Below, piece by piece: positions 12,459-60,103 of a stretch of DNA of 64,000 bases; within the stretch, counting starts at the first letter, position 1, and each line of letters begins with the position of its first letter. Origin of the DNA: Euonymus europaeus (taxonomy: Eukaryota > Streptophyta > Magnoliopsida > Celastrales > Celastraceae); NCBI GenBank assembly GCA_963580455.1, contig OY756972.1, forward strand, positions 3,735,001 through 3,799,000. The letters are read 5' to 3'. A model generated the notes under the pieces. The model ran no database searches. It was not told where the DNA came from and was given only the letters and a program-made list of their open reading frames with translations. The position numbers and the translations under genes are program-made.

Positions 12459-14902
12459 TTAATCAGGACCCGCCTCAAGCATGATGGACTCATCCCCAAC
12501 ACTATTCTCTTCACCAGCCCTGCCTTTGAAACGCCAAGCAATCCACACATACACCAAGAAATTAGCCCCATTAATGGCAGCCAATATCCAATAAAAGTAA
12601 TCAAGCCTACTCTGATTAAGGTCATCCCTCAACCACCCTCTCTCTTCTCCACCAGTAGCTCTTCCAACAATCTTCACCAATGCAGTACTTAACCAACTTC
12701 CAATCCCAATCTCAGACAGGAAAAATGCACTGCTGATACTCCTCGTTCCATCTGTGGTTTGGTCGTAGAAAAATTCCAATTGTCCCACATAAGTAAACAC
12801 TTCTGCTGTACCCAGTAAGAAGAATTGTGGGAACAACCAAAAAACACTCATGGTTGGCGAGTTTGGATCTTCACGTCGCTTCTTTTCTACTAATGCAGCT
12901 GAGGCTAATGAGAAAATCGACACAAATAGGCCAACACCCATTCTTTGTAGCGATGTGAGGCCGCGGTGGTGACCGGTGTATTTGCGAAGGATTGGGACTA
13001 TCCAGAGTTCGTAAACGGGGACAAGGATGACACCATTTATAGCAGCGAAGACAGGGGAAGAGCCTGCAGGGATAGTGAATGATCTGATTCTGCGGTCCAT
13101 TTTGTTTGCTTGGCTGACAAAAAACGTGGACTGTTGTGCGAAGGAGAGAGCCAGAGCAATCGTTGATGCCCAGATTGGAAGTACTCGAATAAAGCATTTG
13201 AATTCCTCAACTTGTGTCACAGTGCATAGTCTCCATCGGTTCTCTGGGTTGGCTTCTGGGTTTGTTGCTACTGCTGCTTTGTCTAAGAAGCTGAGATCGA
13301 AAGTAATAACCAATGTCTCAAACTTCATGAAGAATAACATAAAATATGTGAATCCCAGTACAGAATAATCAGAAGATCTGGAAATTGGAGTCCAGAGTGA
13401 TTTTGTGGGGCAGTGGCTGAAGTTGAGAGGATGCTCTGTTTATGCTAGAAGAGTCTGCCAAGTGTTTGATAATTTGCTCGTGTGAAATTGCTAGTATTAG
13501 CAGTTTAGTTATTGATGCGATTCACAATGAATGCTGGGTAACCTAAACAAATTCGATGACTCTCACCTGTACTGTCTTGTATGAGCAATCTTTCGGGCAC
13601 CAGTGATGGCAGATTCAACAGAATCAACTTCATAAAGACCAGTCTCACGACGCACCACAACCCCTGCAAAATGGTTCTTTGCAGAAGCTACAATGACCTG
13701 AAGAAACCTTGTGAAAGGGCTTCCCATGGGCTTTTGGAATCGATAAAAAGGAACCCCAGAAACTAAAATGATGATAGAACTAAACGTGAGGACAGTAGGC
13801 ACTGCAAACCCCCAAACCCATCCCTTTTTATCTTCTATGTAAACCAACACTGTTATACCAAGCAGTGCACCCATGTTAATGGCGAAGAAGAACCAGTTGA
13901 AGAATGCATATTTCTTTTGAGCTTCTTTTTTGTCAGCCTCGTCGAATTGGTCTGCTCCGAATGAGGAGACGCAGGGCTTGATACCACCAGTTCCAAGGGC
14001 GATAAGGGCTAGTGCACAGAAAAGGAAACCTGATTGACGATCGGTTGCTTTTATGCATGGTCTTCTCATGCATTTAGGTGGTCGCAGGCTATCTATACCA
14101 GCTGATAATGTTAACATGACCATTCCCTGAAAGGTTATGAAGCAAAAGTTCTAGTTAATAGGAAGGTGAATCATTTGTAAAGTACATATAACTCTGCCGA
14201 TGAGCATTACAATTCCTCCAGTTCTGAATCAGTGATTCTGTACAGTGTTGAATTTATTGTTTCTTGGTTCTTACCACTGCATAAACGCAAGAGAAGACAA
14301 CGATGGTTTTGAATCGGCCCCAATAAGCGTCAGCGATGAACGCTCCGAGAATAGTTAAAACGTAGGCAGCTCCAATCCAATCAGTGACATGAGTGGCAGC
14401 AGTTGGGAGTGATTGATTCATTTCAGAGACCAAGTAAGCTACCATATTCACAGCAATGGCAAAAAAAGCTAACCTCTCAGCCACCTCATTTGCTGCAACC
14501 ATCAAATTTGTTAAATCAGTGAAAATTGTACAAGATTGTCAAATGACAGTAGCTAATTAACGAGCCAAAGACTACCAACGAGAAAAGGAGAGCTCTTCCA
14601 TCCTCCAGTTCTTCGCTTGTCCGCAATTCTCCCTCGAAAATCAGTACTTCCAATGCTGACCAAAGTAGAGGGGGACATGCTTGGTTTCTAAAAGGAAGAA
14701 AAAACATATTTCCATGTGAGAACGTAGTGATTTTAGGCAAAACATAAAATAAAGAATAATCATTATAGTCACATATACTTGAAAATAACTGAACCTCAAC
14801 CGTTTTAGTTTCTTGGTTTTCTTCTTCAAAGTGGAATTCATCCATGGAGGGCTGGATTATGGACCTCTCAAATGGGTCATTGCTAGGACTAATTTTATCC
14901 AT
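12459..14902 (-). CDS. NRT1/PTR family (NPF) proton-coupled transporter
   Basis: Five exons on the minus strand join in phase: 14902-14795, 14687-14576, 14492-14275, 14126-13567 and 13290-12459. They give 609 residues, a normal length for this family (major facilitator superfamily, POT). Residues 76-80 form the ExxER motif (EVAER) of TM1, required for proton coupling in studied members. Other family signatures are DFRGRIADKRRTGGWKS, LGAFIADAYWGR, LALIALGTGGIKPCVSSFGA, FFNWFFFAINMGALLG and the C-terminal FFYDQTTDGTRSISSAFFL. Members move nitrate, peptides, hormones or glucosinolates across membranes; the substrate cannot be read from the sequence and I do not assign a subfamily. The 58-residue N-terminal extension before DFRGR is Ser/Glu-rich. 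The exon 4-5 junction places Ser (Y-S-FLDKAA) where relatives often have Arg. Convergent with WAT1, divergent from the phosphatase gene. Confidence 0.9.
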
Positions 14903-16298: not shown

Positions 16299-18856
16299 AT
16301 GGGAGTGAAGTGGGTGTGCGTATTTCTTATTGTAGGACTGACACTGAGTGTTGCAGAGTTGGGTAATGGCGGAAGAACGAGCAGTTATGTAAGAAACGAT
16401 GACTTGTCTAATGATATGCCGCTAGACAGTGATGTGTTTCGAGTTCCTCCTGGTTATAATGCCCCTCAACAGGTGCGTCTGTGCTGGTCTGTTAAACCTT
16501 CCGTTTCATCTTCTGCGGCTTTAACAATGTCTGGGTGTTCGTCACAGACTAAGATTAATTAGTGGGTTTTGTTCAATTGATTGCCTTTTTTATTTTCTCT
16601 GATTGTTGTGAAGGTTCACATAACACAGGGGGATCATGAGGGTAGGGGTGTGATTGTGTCTTGGGTGACTCTAGATGAGCCTGGTTCAAGCACTGTGCTA
16701 TACTGGGATGATAATGGCTCCCGTAAAAACATTGCTGAAGGGATTGTACTGACCTACAAGTTCTTCAATTATACTTCTGGGTTCATTCATCACTGCACCA
16801 TCGCAGATTTGGAGGTTAGTTGTCACGACTGTTGTTTAGTTAACAATTCTACATTAAGAGTGATTTTTGTTTTTATTATTGTTGATTAGATCATGCTTTT
16901 TTTTAGTAAATTTATTTTAATTGCAGTTCGACACCAAATACCACTACGAGGTTGGAACTGGGAATACACCAAGACAGTTCTGGTTCGTGACTCCGCCGAA
17001 AGTCGGCCCTGACGTGCCTTATGTTTTTGGCCTTATAGGTATTCGTTTATATGTCTAACTGAGCAAACGACCCATAGTTTAGGTTGTACTTTGGGTTTAC
17101 TTTGTATTCTTCTGAAGAACACTAAAATGTCAAAAGTAGTACTCAGCCTCTTGAAACAGAGATGGTGAATCATCCATTTCAAGTAATTTGTTCATATGCA
17201 AGGTCTTTTTCATTAAATTTCATACTTTATCCGTGTCTCACTCCTTCAAATTGTTTGAGCAGGGGACCTTGGCCAAACGCATGATTCAAATAGGACACTA
17301 ACGCATTATGAATTGAACCAGGCGAAAGGCCAGACTGTCTTGTTTGTTGGAGACCTCTCGTACGCTGATGCTTATCCATTTCATGACAACAACAGGTGGG
17401 ATACATGGGGAAGATTCACAGAGAGAAATGCTGCTTATCAACCTTGGATTTGGAGTGCGGGAAATCATGAAATTGATTTTGCTCCACAGATTGTAAGTGC
17501 CCTTCTTCCTTTTTGTGTTTTATCTTATTATGTATGCTTTAGTGAGACTTGCGATTATATTGTTCTGATTATTCCTTCTCAGGGTGAATTTAGACCATTT
17601 AAGCCTTATAGCCATCGTTATCATGTACCATATAGAGCATCTGGTAGTACCTCTCCTTTTTGGTACTCCATCAAGAGAGCTTCTGCATATATCATTGTCA
17701 TGGCTAGTTATTCTGCCTTTGGTAAGGATCTAAAATTTTCACACTCAGTTATATTGTGTTTTACTGGTGTGTTTTGTTTTTAAATGACAAGAACAAATTA
17801 TTCACTTGATTTACGCTCATATTTTATGTGGCTTCTAGGCCTTTATTTATTGAATAAGGTCTTGCAAAAAATGGTTTGTCTCTGGAGTTCTTCAGCCGTT
17901 CTTGGTTGATTTTTGGGACTTTTTTATTATCAAAGGGAGTTATTATGGAAGCTGGAGCGAATGCCATTTTAGAAGTTTGAAAATGACGCAAAACAACAAT
18001 GAAATCACTTGTTAAGGATGATTTGGCGATTGAACTGTGATATACGATGCAGAGACATCTTAATCTATTCGAAAAACTTTGCTTTGTAGGTACATACACT
18101 CCACAATACAAATGGCTTGAAAAGGAGCTTCCAAAAGCGAACAGGACGGAGACGCCATGGCTTATTGTTGTGATGCATTGTCCACTGTATAATAGTTACG
18201 CACATCATTACATGGAAGGGGAAACCATGAGAGTAATTTATGAGAAATGGTTCGTGGAGTTCAAAGTAGATGTTGTCTTTGCTGGTCATGTTCATGCCTA
18301 TGAACGATCTGTATGTTCATTATCTCCAAATACTATTATCAACACTGCTCTCAACTTGATGGGAAATTTTGATTACTGATGCGAGAGGATGGAAAATAGT
18401 GAGGTGTGGTTGTCATTTGTGATCGAACACGTAATCTCATTGTATTATGTTTCAATTGCAGGAACGTGTGTCGAATATTGCTTACAATGTTGTGAACGGC
18501 TTGTGCACTCCCATTAGTGATCAATCTGCCCCAGTTTACATAACCATTGGCGATGGAGGAAATTTAGAAGGATTAGTAACAGAGTACGTGCCTTTTTGCT
18601 AATTAACTCGTAGTTATCAAAATGTGCATAGTGCTAATTGCTATTTTCGACATGCAGAATGACAGAGCCACAGCCAAGCTACTCAGCTTATCGCGAAGCA
18701 AGCTTTGGTCATGGCATTTTAGACATAAAGAACAGGACTCATGCTTATTTTGGCTGGCATCGGAATCAAGATGGTTATGCTGTTGAAGCTGATAGTACGT
18801 GGTTGCTCAATAGGTACTTCAACCCCTTAGAAAATAGTTCCATAGCTGCAATATGA
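16299..18856 (+). CDS. Secreted purple acid phosphatase (PAP10/12-like, metallophosphoesterase)
   Basis: Eight exons join in frame: 16299-16472, 16614-16814, 16927-17038, 17263-17492, 17583-17721, 18090-18310, 18462-18583 and 18658-18856. They give 465 residues, the usual size of the large plant enzymes (about 468). A signal peptide (residues 1-20) is followed by the subgroup sequence [14 protein letters not shown], a fibronectin-like N-terminal domain ([19 protein letters not shown]) and the catalytic domain. All five metal-binding blocks are present: [32 protein letters not shown] and GHVHAYERS. These supply the seven ligands of the dinuclear iron/second-metal centre, so the enzyme should be active in hydrolysing phosphate monoesters in the apoplast or vacuole. 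The ATG at 16299 is preferred because it starts the signal peptide. Closest types known to me are PAP10, PAP12 and kidney-bean PAP; I do not choose among paralogues. Confidence 0.92.
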
Positions 18857-19266: not shown

Positions 19267-19659
19267 ATGAGGAGCTTTGCAGAGATGCCAGCCTTGATCA
19301 TGTTCTTGATGTTAACATGTGTCGTAGTGAAGACAATGGCATACGTGCCATATCCACCGGAGCCCCCAATTTTCAAGTCTGAAATTCCACCGGAACCTAG
19401 ACCCGGATATTATAAGTACTTGAGCTATTGCCTATCAAAGTTCAGTGTAGAGTGCAAAAAAGAATTGCTTTGTTATGCGGCTTTGGATGTTTTGGTCACC
19501 GATGCTTGTTGTCACAACCTTGTTCGCATGGGAAAGAAATGTTACATTGACTATGTTGATTATGTCTTGACAATACCCAAGTTTAATAGAGCTGCTCGGA
19601 AGGGACATGAAAGGGCGAATCGATTATGGAACACGTGTTATTTAAGATTGAACCAGTAG
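19267..19659 (+). CDS. Small secreted cysteine-rich protein, prolamin-like (ECA1 gametogenesis-related) family
   Basis: A single-exon 130-residue protein. Residues 1-24 form a hydrophobic signal peptide (core ALIMFLMLTCVVV), followed by a proline-rich linker (PYPPEPP, PPEPRP). The mature domain has cysteines at 55, 63, 69, 81, 82, 92 and 124, including the adjacent CC pair. The C-x7-C-x5-C-x11-CC-x9-C spacing matches the prolamin-like domain of ECA1 gametogenesis-related proteins, relatives of egg-cell EC1 peptides. Family members are small, secreted, fast-evolving and often expressed in reproductive tissue. A specific role is not inferable. A clear TATA box precedes it and no intron is required. 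A downstream Met at residue 7 is possible, but the first ATG gives a better signal peptide. Assignment rests on cysteine pattern only. Confidence 0.72.
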   Translation: MRSFAEMPALIMFLMLTCVVVKTMAYVPYPPEPPIFKSEIPPEPRPGYYKYLSYCLSKFSVECKKELLCYAALDVLVTDACCHNLVRMGKKCYIDYVDYVLTIPKFNRAARKGHERANRLWNTCYLRLNQ

Positions 19660-20332: not shown

Positions 20333-21750
20333 TCACATGCACCAGGGAGTGTGCAACGCATCCCAGCTTGGACCATCCGTGAAATTGTCAGGGAAAACGC
20401 CTGAATTGTCCATCACTGGGAAATCTATTGACATTGCCGCTTCTGCCCAAATTGAATCATCAAATGCTGGCAAGTTCCCGTTCAAATTCTCCCAAATGTC
20501 CACCAAATCGTTGTGCTCGGGCTTCGCATGATTGGTTTCTGGTTGTCTGATTGAGTTGATTGAATTGTCAATAGGTATGGCAACTGGGTTTGAATTCGAG
20601 CGACATATAGTGCCACCTGAAGTGCATGGGACTGGAGTTTTGTTCTGGGTTCCCAATTGAGCAACCTGAGTATGCACACAAGGTGTTTGATCTCGGGACT
20701 GAGAGTTGGCCTGCAACTCCGGCAGGTTGAGCTTCGCGCCGGGTCCGTTTAGTTTGCGAGCAGCTGCTTCATAAGCCATGGCGGCTTCATTTGAGGTGTC
20801 AAAAGTACCTAACCAGAGACGCGCACCACGATTGGGTTCACGGATTTCAGCAACCCATTTGCCCCAAGTTCGTTGTCGAACGCCTTTGTAAGTACATAGG
20901 GGTCGTTTGGTTTTTAGAATGGTTTGAGAGGGAATGAGAATGAGAATGAGAATGAGAATGAGAATGAGAATGAGAATGGGAATGAGAATGGGAATGGGAA
21001 TGAGAGTGAGAATGATATTTTGATTCTCACGTTTGGTATGTATAAAAATTGGGAATGAGAATATGAATGAAATTGTCTTTTGTCCATTATGTCCTTCCTT
21101 TATAATTATGCATAATCAAAATATTTCATTTGTGCATTTCTAATTATATATAATTAACAAATTATATAATTATATAATTAACAAATTTAAAAAAATGGAC
21201 TCAAAATTAACAAATTATATAATTATATAATTAAAAAATTAAAATAAAATAGAAATATATTATTAATATTAATTTATCATAATATATTAATTAAAATTAA
21301 CAAATTATATAATTATATAATTAACAAATTTAAAAGATGGAGTCAAAATTAATAAATTATATAATTAACAAATTAAAATAAAGAGCTATATATTATTAAT
21401 ATTAATTTATCAAAATATATTAATTAATATATAATTGAGGTCAAAATTGTCATTTGGATTGCCATTCCATGTGGAATTGACTATTCCCACCTAAAAAGGT
21501 GGGAATCAAAATGGAGGAGAGAGACATGAAGGAATGGAATGGAGCATTCCATTCCCTCAAAATTTAAACAACCCAAATGATGGAATGGAATGGAATGCTC
21601 CATTCCATAAACCACCTCTATTCCTCCTCTATTCCATCAACCAAATAGTGCATTTTCAGGGCCGCCTTTCCCTCTCATGCACCCTTTCCTTGAATTAGCC
21701 TGTCCAGGTCTCTTGACCTTCTTTCCTCCTCCTCCACCACCACCAGCCAT
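20333..21750 (-). pseudogene. DREB2D-type AP2/ERF transcription factor gene interrupted by an insertion
   Basis: Two minus-strand coding pieces, 21750-21646 (35 codons from ATG) and 20896-20333 (187 codons plus stop), would together give a 222-residue single-exon DREB subgroup A-2 protein, close to Arabidopsis DREB2D (about 206). The N-terminal piece ends SRKGCMRGKGGPENAL. The other begins [18 protein letters not shown], runs through WLGTF with the rest of the AP2 domain, and ends in the acidic tail [13 protein letters not shown]...WDALHTPW typical of DREB2D. A 746-bp foreign segment flanked by TAG copies separates them exactly between Leu35 and the expected Cys36. Both halves are otherwise open and conserved, so the insertion is probably recent. 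Splicing it out would need a weak acceptor (ACAAAG|GC) and would lose CTYK. Family members bind the DRE element and act in drought and heat responses. Confidence 0.85.
20900..21645. mobile_element. ~746-bp non-autonomous element inside the DREB2D-like coding sequence
   Basis: On the plus strand it starts GGGTCGTTTGGTTTTTAG and ends CCATCAACCAAA. It is flanked by direct TAG at 20897-20899 and 21646-21648, a 3-bp target-site duplication. Inverted TTTGGTT/AACCAAA lies near both ends, but the outer GGGTCG has no partner on the right, so the termini are imperfect. Inside are GAATGA/GAATGG tandem units (about 20933-21013), an AT-rich core with repeated AATTAACAAATTATATAATT (about 21140-21440), and GGAATGGAATG-type sequence near the right end. 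No open frame of note. A 3-bp duplication and these features suggest a PIF/Harbinger-like MITE, which is inference. Confidence 0.75.
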
Positions 21751-22895
21751 CACTGAATTGGTCATTCAAGAACAGAGTTTGTAACTTTGTGAAAGTAATG
21801 ATTGGGTATTCACGTTTGGGCCTGAACAAGTAATGGATGAGTGGAATTTATACAAGTGAGGGAAATAGAGAGATAGAGTAAGAGACATTGAGACGTTTCT
21901 TTGTGCTGGCTGGTGCTGCTACTTGGCAAGGAGGAGTAAATCAATCGTGTCAATGTATAAAGATGAGAACTTCCTCTATTGACACACATGGCCAAGCTGC
22001 TTGACCAGTCCGTACACAAGCTTAATAGGATTTTCTTGACTTTGATAATGTGGGTGGGTTATTTACTGTTGGAAGCGGCCTGAACTGGGGAAAAAGAACA
22101 GAACGGTTGTAGATAAGACTCTGCATGGGTTCAAAAACAGAGCACATGACAAAGTAGCCAAAACCTGCTTTGATACGTGGTGAGAATGTGGGGGCACTGA
22201 AATTCTTAAGTGTGAACAAAGGCTTAAAAGTGACTCATGTACGTCTACCATTGTGGTCAACTTTAAAACCATTTAATTTTTTTTTAAACGAGAATGGCAC
22301 TAATTAAATTTAATCGTTAATCAATATGATATTACTTTCAATAGGAATGGAATTCACGACTCCCGAGTCCACACAGTTTGGTCAAAAAAAATATGTCAAG
22401 CTTGATTATCACTCAAGTGGTTTCATTTAAAAAATACCACCACACTTGGGAACAAACAAAATCCTGGAACCAGGGGTTTGCATCCCCATATTTGAGGATT
22501 TTCTGTGCTCAGTGAATCCCAATAAGCAAAAACAAGGGTACAAAACCCTGAAATTAGTACACAAGCCATCTGTTCAACAATCATGGATTGAGGTGTGTCC
22601 GCAAAAAGATGCCATGTAGCAATGCATATATTGACACTTCAGGAGTAATTGTGTACATACCACAGGCGAAAAAATTCCTCGTTTCCACATATCAAGGGGC
22701 ACAGGTGTTGCATACATCATATCCAACACGGTCTAGATCTTCAACAGATACATATTCCAATTCTCCTGACTGCTAGAGCAGGAAATTGGCAAATGCAGTC
22801 ACTGATCACCGGCGAAAATCATAGTGAGTATATCACACAAACAGGCTGGTACACGCCGACAAGGCATGTTGAAATTTTTTATGGCTGTGATGATA
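21751..22895. other. Region between the DREB2D-like start and the Obg gene 3' end
   Basis: Upstream sequence of the DREB2D-like gene (minus strand) and the 3' flank of the Obg gene. No coding features recognised. Confidence 0.5.
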
Positions 22896-25800
22896 TCATG
22901 GTCTTCCACTTAGCTCTAATGGTTCACCGGAACCCCTGCATTTCCTCAAAGCCAACCTTATATCACTCAACATCTCAGTAACCTTGATGCCCTTCCTGTC
23001 GAAACAGAAAAGTAATCTTAGTGTTACTTTGGTTGCTTTAGAATCATATCAAGAACAAATAAAGGACACATTCCAGTGAATGAATACCAATAAAGTTTGA
23101 AACGATACAATAGTTTATCGACTCGTAAAAAGACAGAAAAAAGAGAGCATTATCTCCATAATATGTTGAGATTGTCAAAAACAGTACCACTTTTCAATGA
23201 CTTATCCGACAGAGAGACGAAAAATGGTCCTCCGATTTCGATGAACCATACCAAGTCTGCACGACATGATACAAAATATGCAAAGCACAAATGATGATTC
23301 AAGTTCTAGTCAAGTTTTAATGACAAACTGGTTTGGAATAGGCTAGCTGAGTCCATCGTAGCCAAAAGGATATTTATTTCAAATAAAAAAGGATTTATGG
23401 AGAACTTGAGTGTTTTCGTGAATTTGTTAAAAGTTTAAACCCATTCATTGGCAACCCAGTAACAAGCTGTCCATGAACGGGCATCTTAACCCGAATTGCG
23501 GAAATGCCAATTCGGTGGTCTGACCTATGATGCTTAGGTTGCAACTGAGCAACATTTATAAGAAGTATCTACATGATGCCTTAGTCGCAATTGAGCAGCT
23601 ATATGAAAAAAAAAACAAATCAACAAACGTAATCGTGCAGGGTGTATTTCTTGCACAATATCACACAAAGCTGTGTATCAGTGTGAATAGATTTACAATC
23701 TGTGAAAATTTCAGCGCACAAGAAAAAAATGAAAGAACTAGAAGAAAGAGTTGGGAAGGGAATTGGGTGGAAGAACGAGGAAAGTTATATCTCTCATGCT
23801 GTCTAATCTGGCATTTACAGATGGAGAATGCTAACTGAAAAAAGTGCAGTAGTTAACTTACAGAACGCTAACACCCACAACAGAAAGGGGACGTGGATAG
23901 TCTTCAATTTCATAAATTTTTTCGCCATTTGAAGACTTCGCATGAGGATCTTCATGCTCACTGGATGAAGACTGTTCGGAGCCTATTTTTGTCTCAGTAA
24001 TCACCTCATCACTTCCAATTCTGAGTATTTCCTCAGTCAAGTATGGAAGCCTATCTCTAGCCTGAAAATTTGACAAAATTGACAAGATCTGAAACTTGAT
24101 AGAAATACTCTCATTACAGCACAGATATCAATTTTGATGCTTGAGAAGAGAGAAAAATCCGAAAGCCTGAAACCTCGGGAAGGTCAATTTTATTTAGCAC
24201 CACAATATATGGCCGTTCAAGGTATTCAGGGTTGTACATCCGCAATTCCTGCAATAGCACAATTTCTGTAAAAAACTTATAGAACATTGGGACAAAATAA
24301 AACAACAAGTGACAGAATTTCCACATTGACATACTATTCAAGAACAAGCTAAGTAGCTAACTGCTAAGCATAAACAAAAATAACATCTCAATAAATAACG
24401 ATGAGAGCTCATTCATGAAAGAGATTGATATTTTCTCTGTTCTGTGTAAATAATACAAAAAATAAAAAAAACAAAATGCTATCTACAAGGAAAATAGTTC
24501 TTGTTGACCTATCTGATTTATGTTGATTTAACTAACAAGCCTGAAAGGATAAGTAAAAACAGCCGAAAGATGTTTCTAAAAATTATGATATAGCAAGGAA
24601 AGGTAGAATATGCCAGGGAAAAGATATACTTCTTTAACAGTTCTGTAATCATCCACTGGGTTTTTGGTAGCTGCATCAACAACGTGGACCAACATACGAG
24701 TTCTCCTCAAGTGCCTCAAGAAATTGCGACCAAGACCCTGAAGGATGCAAGGTTTCAATTTCGTATTTAGGAGCTTTAGAATAGACATTTGACCCGGATA
24801 CAGAACACACAATACCTTTCCCAGATGAGCACCTTCTATAAGACCAGGCAAATCTGCCAAGGTTGCTTCAGATGAATACATTCCTGCTCCTAATGCAGGA
24901 TCACCTCCAAGGCGCCCAAGGTTTGGCATCAAAGTTGTGAAAGGATAATCAGCAATATCAGGCTTCGCAAGTGTAATAGCCGCCAGAAGGGTTGATTTTC
25001 CAGCATTTGGTAGCCCCTAGAAAAGTAAGTGAATATCTATTAATATATGAATCCACAAAAATCTTTTAAAATAATTATCCAACTAGATCCATAAGAAAAA
25101 ATAATTCACTAAAAGAAGACGAGAAAAACAATCACAGGATAACATATACTTCAAAACTGTCATTTTCTTATAGTCAACCAGGTCAGCTCTCACCACTGAA
25201 CTGATTAACAAATAACATATATAAACTAATACACAAAGGATATCCACCTAAGCTGAACATTCTTGACGTTCTAAATTCAGATAATATAATTTTAGGCATT
25301 AGTTTAATGCTCATAATGAATCAACCCATATTAGTATCAGTGTATGACAAACAAAACAAGGTTCAGGAATCAAAATAGACACAGGTCCATCCAATGCAAT
25401 ACAGTCACGAACTTTAATGTTGATGTTGCACTACTGATACTTAAGGGCTACATATACACACATATGGCCTTTTACGTCTAAGGATGGTGGTTTTGCTTCT
25501 AGAAGCTGAACGATACATGTATATATGATACTTCTGATGTAACACGGAAAAGGAAAATGAGCATTACTTACAACGAGACCAACATCAGCGACAACACGTA
25601 GAATCAATTCCAAACTAACCTCCTCGCCAGGCTGACCACGAAGTAGAACCTGAAAAACACATATGCCTGACAGCCAATTAGAATGAAAAACAAAACAGCA
25701 CTTCTGAATGGCAACATATCACAAAGAGCAGTGCTATGGTCAGTATGGTGAAATATATCTTGTCATTTTAGCTCTCTAAAATAAGGTCTCATGGTAGTGT

Positions 25801-28800
25801 CAAGAAAGTCCATTAAAGATGCTATGTACAGATTCGAAACTCTCCCACTGACGATGTCAAGATTTAGATTCTATAAGATGCATTACACTTCAACTATTAC
25901 AAAGGAAAGGAATTTATTTTTGTCACAAGAAGTTGTAGCATAATATTAGAAGAACAATGCATCAAACAACACCTGCAAGCAGACAATTCCATAAGTCAAA
26001 AAGACACCGACCTATCAACCAAATCTTGAGGCAGGTCAAGCTGATAGAAAAAATTTACACTTGATTAAATAGCTAAGTTTATGGATTGTCGATCCTTTTC
26101 CTTTATATCTATCTCAATAGACAGAAAAAGGGAATCAATACAAGAAAACAGCTTCCATGATCTAGACTTTTTGTTTCTTCTGTATCAAGAACATCAAAAA
26201 AGTGGACACGCCAAGATTTTTTTCTAGTGTTTCCGGTACATAGAAGTAATAATTTGGCCATAGATTGGAAATCCTAGATACTGAACATATCAGAAATAGC
26301 ATTAGAGAGATGCGATATTTTCCCCAGCTATATTGGTGAATAAAAATTTCTGATCAAATCATTCCAAACAAGAAAACAAATAACTTGGATCCTACTGATG
26401 TCTGAAACAGAGATGTTTTCCTCAAATTACAGTAGGACACAGTGACCAGAGTTGTTAAAAGCTCGCTTAAGCGCTAAAGCGAAGCAATCAGAAGCCTTAG
26501 CGCCTTGATCGCTTCTCTTCTGCGTGTTTTTTCGAAGCGAGCTTAATCTCGCTTACCCGCGCTTTTGTGAGGCGCTTAAAGGCGCCTAATACCTGCTGTG
26601 TTGAAGCCATAAAACGATAACAAAAATAGAATCCCTAGCTCTCTAGCCCCGCGACATCTCATGTTTGAGTTGCGACTCCTCTGCGTCTCTTTTCAGCTTC
26701 TCTCTGGCACACGCGCGACATCTGTCTTCCTTGCTGATCTGCTTTCGGTTGCTCTTCAAGTCCTCCTCAAGCTGCCGCTGCTCTTCAACCATTTATGTGT
26801 TATGCTTTTATGAATTATGACTTTATGAGCAGTCTAGATTTGTTCCAGCCTTCCAGGGATGTTGAAATGTCTATTTTATTTATGAATTGAGTGTTAAGTG
26901 CCATGAAAATGCAGGAAATCATCTTTTTTGCTGCATGTCTTCAAAAGCACGCTTAAGCTAGCACCTAGAGCTTCGAAGTGCTAGGAGGCCTCTGGCGCTT
27001 TGCAGCGCTTAGGGCTTTTAACAACTCTGACAGTGACACACTGACAAAGACAATCAGAAACGTGGACTTTACCTTATCATTATCATCTCTCAGCACATTT
27101 GGTGTTGAAGCCATCAAAATTTTCCTTCTATGCTCTGGCGCGTCCAGCAAGCTAATCTGCCAATACCCCCACCCGAGAAAGAAATAGAAGTATCAGTTAA
27201 AAGCTTGCTATTGAACTAGAACAGAACACCAACCATAATCTAACAATGTCCCATTTATAAGTAATAAAGTTCCAAACGGAAATTAAGCCCAACCACCATA
27301 TATAGTTCTAGCTATACATCACTCACGTAACAAATTGATAAAACTACTTGAAATCCATTCATGGTTAAGAAAATTGAGTCTCACCCCTCCTTGTCCACCC
27401 CTTGCAACAAGTATTTCTTGACCTGGATGTGCTAGATCAGCCAATAACTTCCCTCTTTTACGTTTTACGACTGTACCTGTCATATGAATACATAATCAGA
27501 TATATGGATGGAACTGTTTTATAACATGAATTTCCAGATGTCTAAGAAAAGAATAGTAATATTATACACACACCTGCAGGCACAGGAATCCTTAGTGTTG
27601 GGCCAGCAAGTCCATCGTGCAAACGAGGGGTTAAAATGCCCATGGCACTGACATTTCCACCACGTTTTGCATTATATCGATTCTTCTCGTGGAACTCTAA
27701 CAATGTGTCTTTTTCTTCGTCTGCATAAATTACAACATCTGCTCCATGGCCCCCCACAGGGAGAATTATTGATCCATCAAAATCCCTCTTATATGATCCT
27801 TCCTTTCTTGTTTTCTTTTTCTCATGTTTTCCTTGTGATTTGGCAGCTCCTTTGTTAGACATACTAAGTATTGCACCATGGCCTCCATCGCCTGAGCGAA
27901 CTGTTATAATTACCTGATCAAAATACTTATGAGGTTCCTTTATCAGCGAATCATTGCTTGCGGACGTAGTCTCTTTGGCCCTTGCAAGTCTACAAGTAAT
28001 TGTGTATCTCAAGTTCACAGAAGTGACACTGGTGTGATACCTATCAAAAAATTAGCAGCAAATTTTGGTACTTGAATAGTCACAAGGTTGAGAAATTGGA
28101 TTGAATAGTAAATAGAGCAGAAGAGTCAAGATAAACACACAAAAATTTCAAGAGATGAAAAGATAGAATGTAAGAGTCAATTAAAAGTTCTGGAATATAT
28201 ATTTTAGTAGGGCATAAGCTTAGATTTAAATCAAAACATAGCTTCGATAACTCTTCACATAAGCAGATGAACATTAGTTTGGATTAATAACATTGGAAAG
28301 GAGGGTAGCAATGCTACGAACAATCCACAAAAGCAAGTGTAGATAAACATATCACACTTTCATGCAAAAAAATCATCCTCGAATTTACTTAATCAGAAAT
28401 TCAGTTCCACACAAATGGAAACAATCATAGCTTCGTCTAAAATCACTGCCCTTAGCTTAATCAGAAATTCATTTCATACCGAAAAACTACCATAACAAAT
28501 TTTTTACTTTTATCAGCTTTCCAATGGTACATGTGACCCACTATCAGAGTTGTAGTGGTGCAAACTAAAGGACCTTCAATTCATGGAAAGAGCCGGAATG
28601 CTCATATTTTCCAAGAAATTTTCATCAACGAAAGTCTATCTAAATTGAAACAATTAGCACAATTCATGATATTAAAAATATAAACCCTAACATTAAAAAT
28701 TATGCTCAATATTATCTGCGAGTTCATATTTACATAGAAACTGCAATTCAGCGTGTTTGAAGGAGTGGAAGGAAGGAAGTATAAACAGCGAATGCAAAGA

Positions 28801-34378: not shown

Positions 34379-39838
<5,460 letters not shown>

Positions 39839-40684
39839 TCACGAAGAAGGAAACACATCTTTGACAGCAGTGGCAGCGCTCAAGTAATTAAGCGTGTTCC
39901 TTAAAGTCTCCTTCTCCCTTTTCAATCTTGCCGCAGTGTCCTCCAATTCCAGCAGTGCCTGCTGCTCCCTCGGTGCTCCCTCGAATGTACTCCCAACAAA
40001 GAACGAGAAGGGCGTATGGAATAGATTCCTCCGCAAATCCTGTGCCTCCTTCTTCGGCCTTCCGTTTAGCCGATTCGACAACCGAATCACATCCTTCATA
40101 CATGTCTCCACTTCATGCGCCAACCCCTCCAGATCCTCCTCTCCGAATGGCCGGTCTTCCAGCCACTTCACCTCGGCCACTAGATATGGCTTTGTACGGA
40201 CCAAATCCGTCACGCAAAATCGCTCCTGCCCCTTACAGACGATAAAGAACCGGTCGTCTACTAGCCGCTCGTGCTTGACAATCTCCCCAACGCAGCCGAC
40301 ATCGGCAGTGCCCGATACGGAGTCGGAGTATATAACACCAAACCGCAAGTCAGTCTCTAGCAGAGTGTGCATCAAAATTCGATACCTGAACTCAAAGATC
40401 TGCAGAGGAAGAATTGCACCAGGAAATAGAACAAGGGGAAGCGGAAACAATGGGAGCTCAACAACGTCGCCTGATTTTGGAGAGTTCGTGTGGTGCTTCT
40501 CTGAGAAATAAGAGGCGGAGCAACGGAGAGACTCGACTCTTCTACGGTGGCAGAGATTGACCCCTGTTGGAGAAGAATAAAGGAAACATTTACGATTAGG
40601 GTTTGCCGGATAGCATGAGGTGTAAGTGCTGCAGGGCTTTAGTGAGGGTTTGTGAGACGAAATGAGCTGCTGAGGGAGAGCCAT
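39839..40684 (-). CDS. Plastid LON substrate-binding-domain protein (not a full protease)
   Basis: An intronless 281-residue frame. Residues 1-58 are Ser/basic-rich and resemble a chloroplast transit peptide. A LON N-terminal (substrate-binding) domain spans about 75-270, beginning VELPLFPLPLVLFPGAILPL and followed by IFEFRYRILMHTLLE and an ALLELEDTAARLKREKETLR helix near the end. The ATPase and Ser-Lys protease domains of true Lon are absent, as in the plant family to which Arabidopsis At1g75460 and At1g19740 belong (from memory). The function of these proteins is poorly known; a recognition or adaptor role is only a guess. The ATG at 40684 gives the only full transit peptide. A MITE-like element sits about 160 bp upstream. 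Confidence 0.9.
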   Translation of the reverse strand: MALPQQLISSHKPSLKPCSTYTSCYPANPNRKCFLYSSPTGVNLCHRRRVESLRCSASYFSEKHHTNSPKSGDVVELPLFPLPLVLFPGAILPLQIFEFRYRILMHTLLETDLRFGVIYSDSVSGTADVGCVGEIVKHERLVDDRFFIVCKGQERFCVTDLVRTKPYLVAEVKWLEDRPFGEEDLEGLAHEVETCMKDVIRLSNRLNGRPKKEAQDLRRNLFHTPFSFFVGSTFEGAPREQQALLELEDTAARLKREKETLRNTLNYLSAATAVKDVFPSS

Positions 40685-47062: not shown

Positions 47063-50000
47063 TTAAGCAGTTTTACTCTCTGTAGAGCAAACAGCTTCAA
47101 CTGATAAACGTTTTAAGACGTTCGGACATGGGTCTGCACCAAAGGTACTGCTTATAGTCACCGAGCAACTATCCTGCCCTAAGCACATCTGTGAAGTGTT
47201 TAACATTCAACAGAGAGATATTAGTACTAGCTAGGTTGAAAAAGGAAGGATATGTATAAGAGAAAGATTGTAGTTGGGAACGTGCCTTCTCTACAATGGC
47301 TTGAGAGTTTGGTGCATGGCATGTTCCTTTATGAAAACTTCCACAAGTTCCTGAAGGAGTCCCAAAACTTGCAAATTTGATAGTTGATATGGTCTGTCCA
47401 GGTGCACAGTGCAGGTGAAACTCCGTTTGGGGAAGCATGGTAGATTCCGCGAGGCTCTGACTACTGTGATTATGTGCAGCATGGTGGTGCTCGAATGCAT
47501 TCGCGCAAACATTTGTTACTGATCTCTTTACAAGCGATATCTTTGAAACATCCCCACCGAGTTCTTCAAATATCACCAATAGATTTTGCGTTGGTTTTAT
47601 CCAGGATCTCGGAACATGATACCTGCAAAACAGAAATATTACTTCGAATTAAACTGTCAAAAATTACATTATTGAGTGTTGTGGCAGTACCATTGCTGGG
47701 TTGGTTGGCCACAACCGAATTGACACTCTGAAGAACGGAACGTCCCAGCGTAACTACATCTGCTGCAATCTCCTTTTGCATATGCCATCCAGTATCTTCC
47801 AATGCTTTGCCCGTTAATCCATATTTGACCTTTTCCCATACTCCGCATGTCCAAAGCCAATGGCTCGTCACCTCCAGGTGCGTTGAAAGAGGCCTGCATG
47901 ATCCATCCTGCCATTTTAGCTTCTGAAACTCTAAACTCGCTTTCATTACTACGCCCTATATTTCTTTGCATCAGTTTACCTTGTGCCATGTTAAAGGTCG
48001 TTGCCTACGGATAGCAAGAGACTCTTTCATCCAATCAACAGATGACGCTCCGTTCGGAGAGACCAAATTCATTGCCTCTCCTTTCAAGCCAACCTGTATG
48101 GCAAAAGTCTCCAAAACATCACAGTTTGCCTGGATAAAGAAGATAAAATGCACGACAGCAGCATTGTACACTTTCTTACCTGGTAAGACCATTTTTCCCA
48201 TGTCAAATCTTTCCTTCCCTGGTTAAGGCCCTGCAATAGAACTGGACCAACAATCCCGGTCTTCCATGTCTCGAAATGCATCCCAATGTTCTTTAAGAGA
48301 AACGTGGAGATATTCAGTCAGTAACAGACTATATGATGTAATGATTTAGATCAATAACTCTAGCTTAGCTTCAAGGGCTCATAGTACTTAAAAAGGAAAG
48401 GAAATGTCCCCGACAACAAAATGCCTCACGCTAAAGTTTGGGGGGAGCGTTTGCGGTGGTGGGGGGAGGGAAGGGAGGGTTCCAATAAAAAAAAATGTAA
48501 TGCCAACTACATTTACAAAGTCTGTGGGATCAGAACTAACCTGTAATCCAACAGCTACACTGAGCAGTGCGATTTTATTTGTTCCAGCATGAAGATTGAC
48601 GGGTCCACTAAAGGTAAATCCCCAGTTTTCCCTGGACCCAAATGCTGATCCTGCAATTATAACATAGTATTGCTGAACAAGGAGTATGAAGGAAGCAGCT
48701 AGTTTACTGTGCAAACTGGCCGGGAAAAATGGCTCCAGAGAAGTCACTGTATAAAATAAACTTGAACAACATACCTGAAAATTGACCGTTGATGAAGACA
48801 TGAATAACATGGCCTGCTGAAATTACAGTGAGGGTGGGCTTCTGTCCGCCTCGTAGAAATGATTCTTTTGGACTAATGTCAACACTGAAATTGAATGCAA
48901 ACACGATAAATAGAATTTTACAATGTCAAACATAGAGCTAACAAATAGACTAACATAATATCATCAGTAGGCCAGGAAGGCGAGAAATCAAACTTCAAGA
49001 CGTACATAGTTTCCCAAGGCTCACTAGGTTCATATCATACTCAGAATCCTCACTTTCCCCAACCCATTCCACTTACCTACTTAACAACTAATCTTTTTGC
49101 GACAGCATAAGAATTGAGATTCATGGTAGCCAATAGTAGGAAGAAGCACATTACTCCACTAGAGCAAGGCATGGATATCACATAAACTTTTTAATTTAAA
49201 TATACTTCTCGTCGAGAGAAGATGTAGCCCTCTGAACATTCCCTGTGAATGCCAACGTGAAGAACTTAAATCCACATTGATCGATCAAAACCAGTAAAAG
49301 TCATATTGTCCATTTGTCTCAAAGTAATGCAACCTAAGATTTGCTATTATGTTATCCCCGGATTTCTTCAACATACTAGACATACAATAAGTATCAACTA
49401 CTTTCAGATATATCCAGAGATATTTGAAAACTGAGAAACTCATATTTAAATTTATTGTCTCGGATGAGCCTAACCTGGTAATGTACCATAGATAGTCACT
49501 ATTATCTCTGGTGACATTTATCTGCTCCAAAAGTCCAACGGATGTTATTCTTGAACTGTCCGCCAATGAAGAGAGATCTTCATCATAAGTCATCCATGAG
49601 AATAACTGAGTATTTGCAGGGAACATTTGCATTTGTGAAGTTTGAACTCGCACCTAAAAGTAAAACATGTGCCCATGTATAAGCGTCGTGATAGATCGTA
49701 TGCTCTTGACTGTACGAGTTGATTTTACACTAGAAATGAACTTTGTGAGCAATCTGAAAGGTTTCTAACTTTTGCAGTGTTGTAGACTTCCATTCTGCAA
49801 TCAGGTAGAATGCTAATGGACCAAGGAGGCAAATGGAAGTGCCTGTTATTGTATATGACAGTAGCAGCAGACTTTGGATTATAATTAGATAGAAAAGCTG
49901 CACAAGTTCCGAGCCCTGAAGAAAATACATGAGCCTGCAAGATGAATATAATAAAGATTGCATTGCATATATCAGCCCATGCATAATTTTATGAATTCTC

Positions 50001-59346: not shown

Positions 59347-59445
59347 ATGTCGGCATTGTCTAGTGGGCTACAAATACACCAACTTGCATGATTTTGTGCT
59401 AATATCTATACTATAGTATAAGATTGATAGATTTCGGCGATTTCC

Positions 59446-59760
59446 ATGGCGAGTACCAACTGTTCATTGAGAGGCCTGCGATTGGTTTTGTAGCCTTGCC
59501 CTCCGTGTCACCTCTTGCTGGCGAGTGCTCGCCCAGTGCCCCCAGTTGCGATGGCGAGTACCAACTGTTCATTGAGAGGCCTGCGATTGGTTTTGTAGCC
59601 TTGCCCTCCGTGTCACCTCTTGCTGGCGAGTGCTCGCCCAGTGCCCCCAGTTGCGATGGCGAGTACCAACTATTCATTGAGAGGCCTGCGATTGGTTTTG
59701 TAGCCTTGCCCTCCGTGTCACCTCTTGCTGGCAAGTGCTCGCCCAGTGCCCCCAGTTGCG
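59446..59760. repeat. Three tandem copies of a 105-bp unit
   Basis: Copies at 59446-59550, 59551-59655 and 59656-59760 are nearly identical; I see only one or two substitutions in the third (TATTCATT for TGTTCATT, GGCAAGTG for GGCGAGTG) and a change in the first bases of the first. The unit is GC-richer than its surroundings. Because 105 is a multiple of three, it stays open on both strands and produces artificial repeats of 35 residues. The near-identity suggests recent expansion. Confidence 0.95.
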
Positions 59761-59849
59761 CGTCCAAACCTTTTTGGCTTGTACGGTACACCGACTTGCT
59801 TTCGGACGTTGCCCCTTGCTTTTCTCTCACATACCCTTGCTCGGCTCTT

Positions 59850-60103
59850 CACGGGTGAAAGTCGGCGATACTCGATTTCTTGATAACAGCAGCGACGATT
59901 AAATAGCGAGGTCTGAACTTGATTGCGTCGAAGGGTTTCAAGGACTCACGGGTGAAAGTCGGCGATACTCGATTTCTTGATAACAGCAGCGACGATTAAA
60001 TAGCGAGGTCTGAACTTGATTGCGCTGAAGGGTTTCAAGGATGTATGAGGAATAGCGAGGTCTGAACTTGATTGCGTCGAAGGGTTTCAAGGATGTATGA
60101 GGG
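59850..60103. repeat. Nested 97-bp and 52-bp tandem duplications
   Basis: CACGGGTGAAAGTCGGCGAT starts at 59850 and again at 59947, a 97-bp period. The sub-block AATAGCGAGGTCTGAACTTG occurs at 59902, 59999 and 60051, the last two 52 bp apart and each followed by GGGTTTCAAGGATGTATGAG. Copies differ by only a few bases (GCGTCGAAG, GCGCTGAAG). Confidence 0.93.

Follow-up and report, generated by a model that had tools for sequence, protein, structure and literature searches.

Small DNA transposons in coding exons are already known, for example mJing in rice (PMC6850418), and the interruption described here is of this ordinary kind, of which it is a clean example. mJing is a non-autonomous PIF/Harbinger-type element reported from a coding exon (exon 6) of HTD1 in the mutant htd, where it is flanked by an off-consensus 3-bp target-site duplication (TSD), TAC, and causes a premature stop (PMC6850418). 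It is 246 bp in length, with 11-bp terminal inverted repeats (TIRs) and known relatives, and its excision has been shown. Among the TSDs of 72 mJing relatives, 32.6% differ from TAA/TTA, with a one-base change in 21.53% and a two-base change in 11.11% (PMC6850418). Tourist-like MITEs, such as kiddo, Tourist-D, Hbr, Monkey King, MtPH-A6 and MtPH-M-3, carry a terminal motif of the GGG..GTTTGGTT type and are flanked by a 3-bp duplication, canonically TAA/TTA. The TIR of MtPH-A6 from Medicago is given as GGGTCCGTTTGGTTC, subterminal tandem repeats are described for MtPH-A6-4, and short forms in Medicago measure 776-905 bp (PMC2213677). The TIR of kiddo, Tourist-D and Hbr is given as GGGGNTGTTTGGTT, and Monkey King combines the terminal motif GACTGGTT with an AT-rich core (PMC4471910).

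Interruption of DREB2 reading frames is also described. In OsDREB2B, ZmDREB2A and LcDREB2, transcripts from which a frame-shifting sequence has not been spliced out yield a short product without function (PMC5852537, PMC5382683). This splice control is regulated, conserved in the Poaceae and confined, in the same account, to one A-2 subgroup, not occurring in other plants (PMC5852537). In Introners, a mode is described in which a transposon supplies one splice site and the host the other (PMC9860276). With regard to DREB2D itself, salt induction of the Arabidopsis gene is reported as slight, and, according to the same account, DREB2G had not been shown to be induced under any condition (PMC3737466). 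On this description Arabidopsis DREB2D is not a prime stress regulator, and the view, taken in an earlier note on this DNA, that the lineage is a factor acting in stress responses is therefore overstated.

The locus compared with these systems lies in a 64-kb stretch of DNA (hereafter, the window), in which a minus-strand gene is split by a 746-bp insertion just before its AP2 domain. The 5' coding half (21649..21750, minus strand) runs from an ATG at 21750-21748 to the base before a TAG copy, and reads open to GGPENAL. A further in-frame ATG lies upstream at 21765, although comparison with Tripterygium wilfordii makes the ATG at 21750, which matches the start of the T. wilfordii protein P0003, the likelier start. 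The 3' coding half (20333..20896, minus strand) is an open frame of 187 codons plus a stop, ending at 20333, and comprises CTYKGVRQ, the AP2 domain and the C-terminus. Between the two halves lie the insert (20900-21645) and, flanking it, two TAG copies that form the TSD (left, 20897-20899; right, 21646-21648), the right one reading on the minus strand as CTA, a leucine codon. Removal in silico of the insert with one TAG (749 bp) leaves one open frame that starts at the ATG at 21765 and runs for 227 codons to a stop, and the rejoined junction, PENALCTYKG, is identical to that of P0003 and of a second T. wilfordii protein, P0004. This same junction results from any of five cut positions, which limits the direct repeat to 4 bp (ATAG); TAG, of 3 bp, is one of the ways in which it can be parsed. 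CTYKGVRQ is present in 75/84 relatives, a further 8/84 differ from it by substitutions, and in the remaining one (P0117) GVRQ is preceded by unrelated sequence. Exact restoration of both frame and length within such a conserved stretch would hardly be expected by chance. The proposal of the earlier note that two open halves regain the expected reading when joined at one TAG is thus borne out by the restored frame and its junction.

A short direct repeat and exact frame restoration also bear on the possibility of an assembly or haplotype artefact, in which the insert would derive from another place or haplotype. A 3-4 bp direct repeat with the frame exactly restored is a mark of transposition and would be unexpected for a misjoin, and an artefact is accordingly judged highly improbable.

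The interrupted gene is, on the grounds of similarity, a DREB2D-type AP2 gene of the DREB A-2 group. A single AP2 domain (PF00847) is detected, scoring 57.9 bits in the 3' half alone and 57.5 bits in the joined protein. Val14 and Glu19 are a feature of DREB-type AP2 domains, and the window gene matches in its DREB-type residues, with WVAEIREP as against FAAEIRDP in AtERF1. DREB2D/2G-type proteins are the best matches of the window gene among those listed (the best 120 of 2019). Within that list, P0003 is the closest, with 89% identity over the whole 3' half, followed by P0004 with 81% over 96% of it; the remaining matches listed are at most 59% identical, save P0119 (76% over 44% of the query). 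The comparison set consisted of 84 relatives, picked from the best 120 chiefly for having a named organism, and a tree was made of 27 rows picked from the resulting 85. In this tree the window gene groups with P0003 (support 99/90) and then with P0004 (100/98). Its rows were chosen with no other DREB2 subgroup in view, so that the tree does not weigh 2D against the other A-2 types. The earlier assignment to the DREB2D type is upheld by the best matches, the tree and the AP2 domain. P0003 and P0004 are called DREB 2G by their source and are uninterrupted proteins in T. wilfordii, whereas here the gene is split by the insert; in common with the window gene they have the same junction residues and a gene for a LON-domain protein, which in each case lies on a contig of equal size. 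Because of the identity, the tree support of 99/90 and this LON-domain neighbour on a matching contig, P0003 is in all likelihood the orthologous protein of the window gene. Identity and contig size likewise suggest that the window most probably stems from the Celastraceae, to which T. wilfordii belongs.

In composition and build the insert looks like a Tourist-like element, that is, a non-autonomous element of PIF/Harbinger type. It is coding-poor, with a GC content of 24.7%, and has Tourist/PIF-Harbinger-like ends around an AT-rich core (GC 8-15%) such as that of Monkey King. One end carries GGGGTCGTTTGGTT (20899..20912, plus strand), the first G of which also closes the TAG copy if the repeat is parsed as TAG, and this insert end is the sole exact match to the motif in the window. 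The motif resembles GGGTCCGTTTGGTTC of MtPH-A6 and GGGGNTGTTTGGTT of kiddo, Tourist-D and Hbr (PMC2213677, PMC4471910). The opposite terminus, TTTGGTTGATGGAATAGAG (21627..21645, minus strand), has TTTGGTT only, and since GGGTCG is missing from its outer side, the two ends form an incomplete inverted repeat. When the two ends are inverted and aligned on TTTGGTT, 13/19 bases match, a value reached by 7 of 20000 random end pairs in the window. A subterminal GAATGA tract (20932..21015, plus strand; 14 copies, 92% matches), pyrimidine-rich on the minus strand, recalls the subterminal tandem repeats of MtPH-A6-4. A two-copy tandem repeat of period 133 (21152..21427, plus strand) lies within the AT-rich core, and at 21534..21608 two perfectly matching 22-bp arms in inverted orientation, 31 bases apart, could form a hairpin. 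Folding of the insert gives a z of -7.81, with 0/20 shuffles as strong, to which AT-rich palindromes contribute. Transposase coding capacity is absent: among ORFs of at least 40 aa, the longest wholly inside the insert is a low-complexity frame of 57 aa.

A 3-bp duplication is present, as in Tourist-like MITEs, but it is TAG rather than TAA/TTA, one base off canonical TAA. Because of this difference the insert is called Tourist-like and not assigned to a family; the likeness concerns the ends and the build. Against a transposon as the best explanation stand the off-consensus TAG, the incomplete second end and the lack of a second copy within the 64-kb window, where blastn with the low-complexity filter off gave short and weak AT-rich matches only (best E 0.012). 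Terminal motifs elsewhere in the window occur at chance level. Other classes of element were considered. A CACTA-type element was rejected on inspection by eye: the minus-strand CACTA at the left boundary belongs to Ala-Leu codons, TAGTG is missing from the other end, and the conserved frame would stay broken after an ATG/ATG cut. A hAT or Mutator element was also rejected, with a direct repeat of 4 bp at most and no 8-9 bp duplication.

The insert could also be an intron, either old or new. An old conserved intron common to the relatives, misread as an insertion, would escape a protein comparison, which cannot reveal introns in the relatives. Nevertheless, GT...AG ends are found in 0/5 of the equivalent cuts, and the insert has transposon-like ends and a short direct repeat; this reading is scarcely credible, in agreement with the earlier proposal of an insertion and not a conserved intron. 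Since none of the five cuts shows GT...AG, the insert is not an ordinary spliceosomal intron whose removal would restore ENALCTYK.

A new intron, by comparison, would have to use other boundaries and would alter the protein. Splice sites were scored with approximate plant matrices, of which only the ranks within the window are used. A possible donor, ATTTG|GTTGAT (21640..21641, minus strand), has its GT 4 bases inside the insert, and a possible acceptor, ACAAAG|GC (20884..20885, minus strand), lies in host coding sequence; both are phase 1 and in frame with one another, and their ranks in the window are the 64th percentile among all GT and the 71st among all AG. Joining 21642 to 20883 on paper gives an in-frame ENAL-F-GVRQ, in which F replaces CTYK. 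The weak splice path that had been proposed through ACAAAG|GC, with a product lacking CTYK, thus exists on paper, with matching phase and middling sites. If it were used, the insert would work as a new intron, the protein would have a changed first AP2 strand and the gene would survive. Consistent with this, the coding halves are open and the altered protein would still score as AP2 (52.9 bits as against 57.5, with 54.2 for P0004). In addition, the AG-to-AG interval closed by the acceptor is 142 bases long and takes in the pyrimidine-rich minus strand of the GAATGA tract, and intervals of at least 142 bases number 5/3623 on the minus strand and 3/3656 on the plus strand. P0117, from Salix koriyanagi and the only such case among the 84 relatives, has an N-terminus that is unrelated and stops exactly where GVRQ begins, as would fit the use, or the prediction, of a homologous acceptor, but it is possibly a prediction error. 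From GVRQ onward it is, by eye, nearly identical to the Salix relative P0088.

Several points weigh against splicing of the insert. Better-ranked donors are present at 21717 (92nd percentile, out of frame) and 21615 (95th, past the stop), and that at 21743 (87th) is in frame but removes most of the N-terminal half; better-ranked acceptors are present at 20808 (82nd), 20763 and 21097 (both 85th). The spliced product would lack the Tyr and Lys of the YKG motif, which align with the Tyr and Arg of the solved AtERF1. Moreover, Introners are reported as not found in land plants (PMC9860276), and they form a repeated intron family, whereas the insert belongs to none such in the window and its putative splice product is not length-neutral. 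That the insert works as a new intron is therefore quite unlikely. The fuller form of this reading, in which the transposon became an intron on arrival through its TTTG|GT donor, an AG-free, pyrimidine-rich (TTCTCA)n tract and the host ACAAAG|GC acceptor, giving a DREB2D variant with F for CTYK, is very unlikely.

With a Tourist-like insertion as the preferred reading, its age can be considered from the state of the coding sequence. The 666 bp of coding sequence that follow the ATG contain 0 stops and 0 frameshifts. If the sequence were unconstrained since the insertion, this would limit neutral change to roughly 0.029-0.055 per site (95% bound), for assumed indel ratios from 0.05 to 0.15. When P0004 serves as outgroup, 14 changes fall to the window DREB gene and 5 to P0003, with 5 ambiguous (p 0.064), and the LON-domain neighbour gives 15 changes as against 6, again with 5 ambiguous (p 0.078). 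The two ratios, 14:5 and 15:6, do not differ (Fisher p 1.0), so a loss of constraint specific to the DREB gene is not claimed. Because the coding halves are open and show no more lineage-specific change than one neighbour gene, the insertion is likely to be recent relative to the split from Tripterygium. Recency had been claimed in the earlier note for this lineage or allele; what the present data support, indirectly, is recency relative to that split, through the absence of stops and frameshifts over 666 bp and the similarity of the two ratios.

Nevertheless, there are hints of an older history. At columns that are at least 95% conserved, the window gene has changed in 3/72 (S24N, D83E, Y90N), as compared with 0/72 in P0003 and 1/71 in P0004 (median 0), and three or more such changes are reached by 10/84 relatives. 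At 90% columns it has changed in 4/85, which 21/84 relatives equal or exceed, and at 98% columns in 2/52 (7/84 relatives). The three changed columns may be taken as a mild sign of relaxed constraint, which would fit an older insertion. They would also fit a gene that was already degenerating, as a relaxed copy or pseudogene, when the transposon landed later and without consequence, as would the end branch of the window gene in the 27-row tree (0.12, as against 0.033 for P0003). Prior degeneration is, however, unlikely: the LON-domain neighbour is equally asymmetric, the coding sequence is intact in frame, and the end branch of P0004 is also 0.12.

The LON-domain gene (39839-40684, minus strand) is a single open frame. 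Its closest full-coverage relatives among those listed are P0124 (91% identity) and P0125 (86%), both from T. wilfordii; a higher score goes to the Fragaria protein P0123, of 452 residues, which is listed with 66% identity over 51% of the query. The contigs of P0124 and P0003 are equal in size, as are those of P0125 and P0004. From the identities and the matching contigs, the segment with the DREB gene and the LON-domain gene appears to have been duplicated in T. wilfordii, each gene being present in two copies there. Because both genes are two-copy in T. wilfordii, a second gene copy may exist that could buffer loss of the insert-bearing one. At 211 columns invariant in six outgroups, the LON-domain gene of the window shows 16 changes, P0124 7 and P0125, gaps counted, also 16. 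This may reflect faster change in the window lineage than in that of P0124, or sequence errors.

Other genes were recognised around the locus. A small Prolamin-like (PF05617) protein gene (19267-19659, plus strand) lies tail to tail with the DREB gene. Pfam matches for one ORF each were obtained for a PTR2-type transporter gene (12459-14123, minus strand), a metallophosphatase gene (17313-18379, plus strand), a beta-galactosidase-like gene with a SUEL lectin domain (47169-49653, minus strand) and an Obg GTPase gene (24576-28018, minus strand). The remaining ORFs, and a papain-like cysteine protease gene (34379-37647, plus strand), were recognised by eye from the ORF list. Further along, a 105-bp tandem repeat of 3.0 copies with 99% matches (59446-59760) reads open both ways, giving apparent ORFs at 59411-59830 on the minus strand and 59424-59858 on the plus strand, and repeats of 97 bp and 52 bp come after it (59849-60102).

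The following sequence of events is proposed for the DREB gene. A non-autonomous DNA transposon of the Tourist/PIF-Harbinger type would have entered a TAG, the CTA leucine codon of the minus strand, which lies immediately before the AP2 domain, and 3 bp of the target (4 at most) would have been duplicated. In the unspliced reading an in-frame TGA follows ENALFG, and an uninterrupted coding sequence for the full protein is absent. A transcript running into the insert would meet this TGA after two insert codons and specify a peptide of 37 or 42 residues lacking the AP2 domain; decay of such an mRNA is possible. Translation begun instead within the 3' half, at its next in-frame Met, would yield a protein of 148 residues in which AP2 is not detectable, and a search of this fragment gave no Pfam match at E 0.01. 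A truncated product, as had been suggested previously, is thus the default outcome predicted from the reading frame. The window gene copy is probably dead, unless the putative splice removes the insert. Taken as a whole, it is highly probable that a Tourist-like insertion just upstream of the AP2 domain has turned this DREB2D-type gene into what is most likely a loss-of-function allele, and that it did so recently relative to the Tripterygium split.

Of the systems described above, mJing is similar to the window insert in being of non-autonomous PIF/Harbinger type, in lying in coding sequence between off-consensus 3-bp TSDs and in introducing a premature stop, whereas the window insert is 746 bp long and incomplete at one end (PMC6850418). 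The AddIn-MITE described in a WD40 gene is intronic (PMC6331000). As judged from titles and the beginnings of abstracts, none of the papers listed on MITEs and DREB genes describes this case. Searches joining the T. wilfordii genome, transposable elements and DREB found nothing, and for Celastraceae genome assembly, whole genome duplication and transposable elements the sole match concerns Populus.

Should the insert turn out to be spliced, a transposon would here have become an intron in a flowering plant, which is rare. The frame-shifting retained sequence of grass DREB2 genes lies upstream of the AP2 domain; it is part of a regulated feature conserved in the Poaceae and confined to one A-2 subgroup, whereas the window gene carries a single insertion. 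Were the insert spliced, and at a rate that changes with stress, the window gene would parallel the splice-controlled grass genes as a young counterpart of independent origin. As a probable loss-of-function allele with readable boundaries, the window gene makes a clean candidate for a natural DREB2D knockout, one that could serve as a marker and for asking whether, after duplication, a plant can do without one DREB2D copy.
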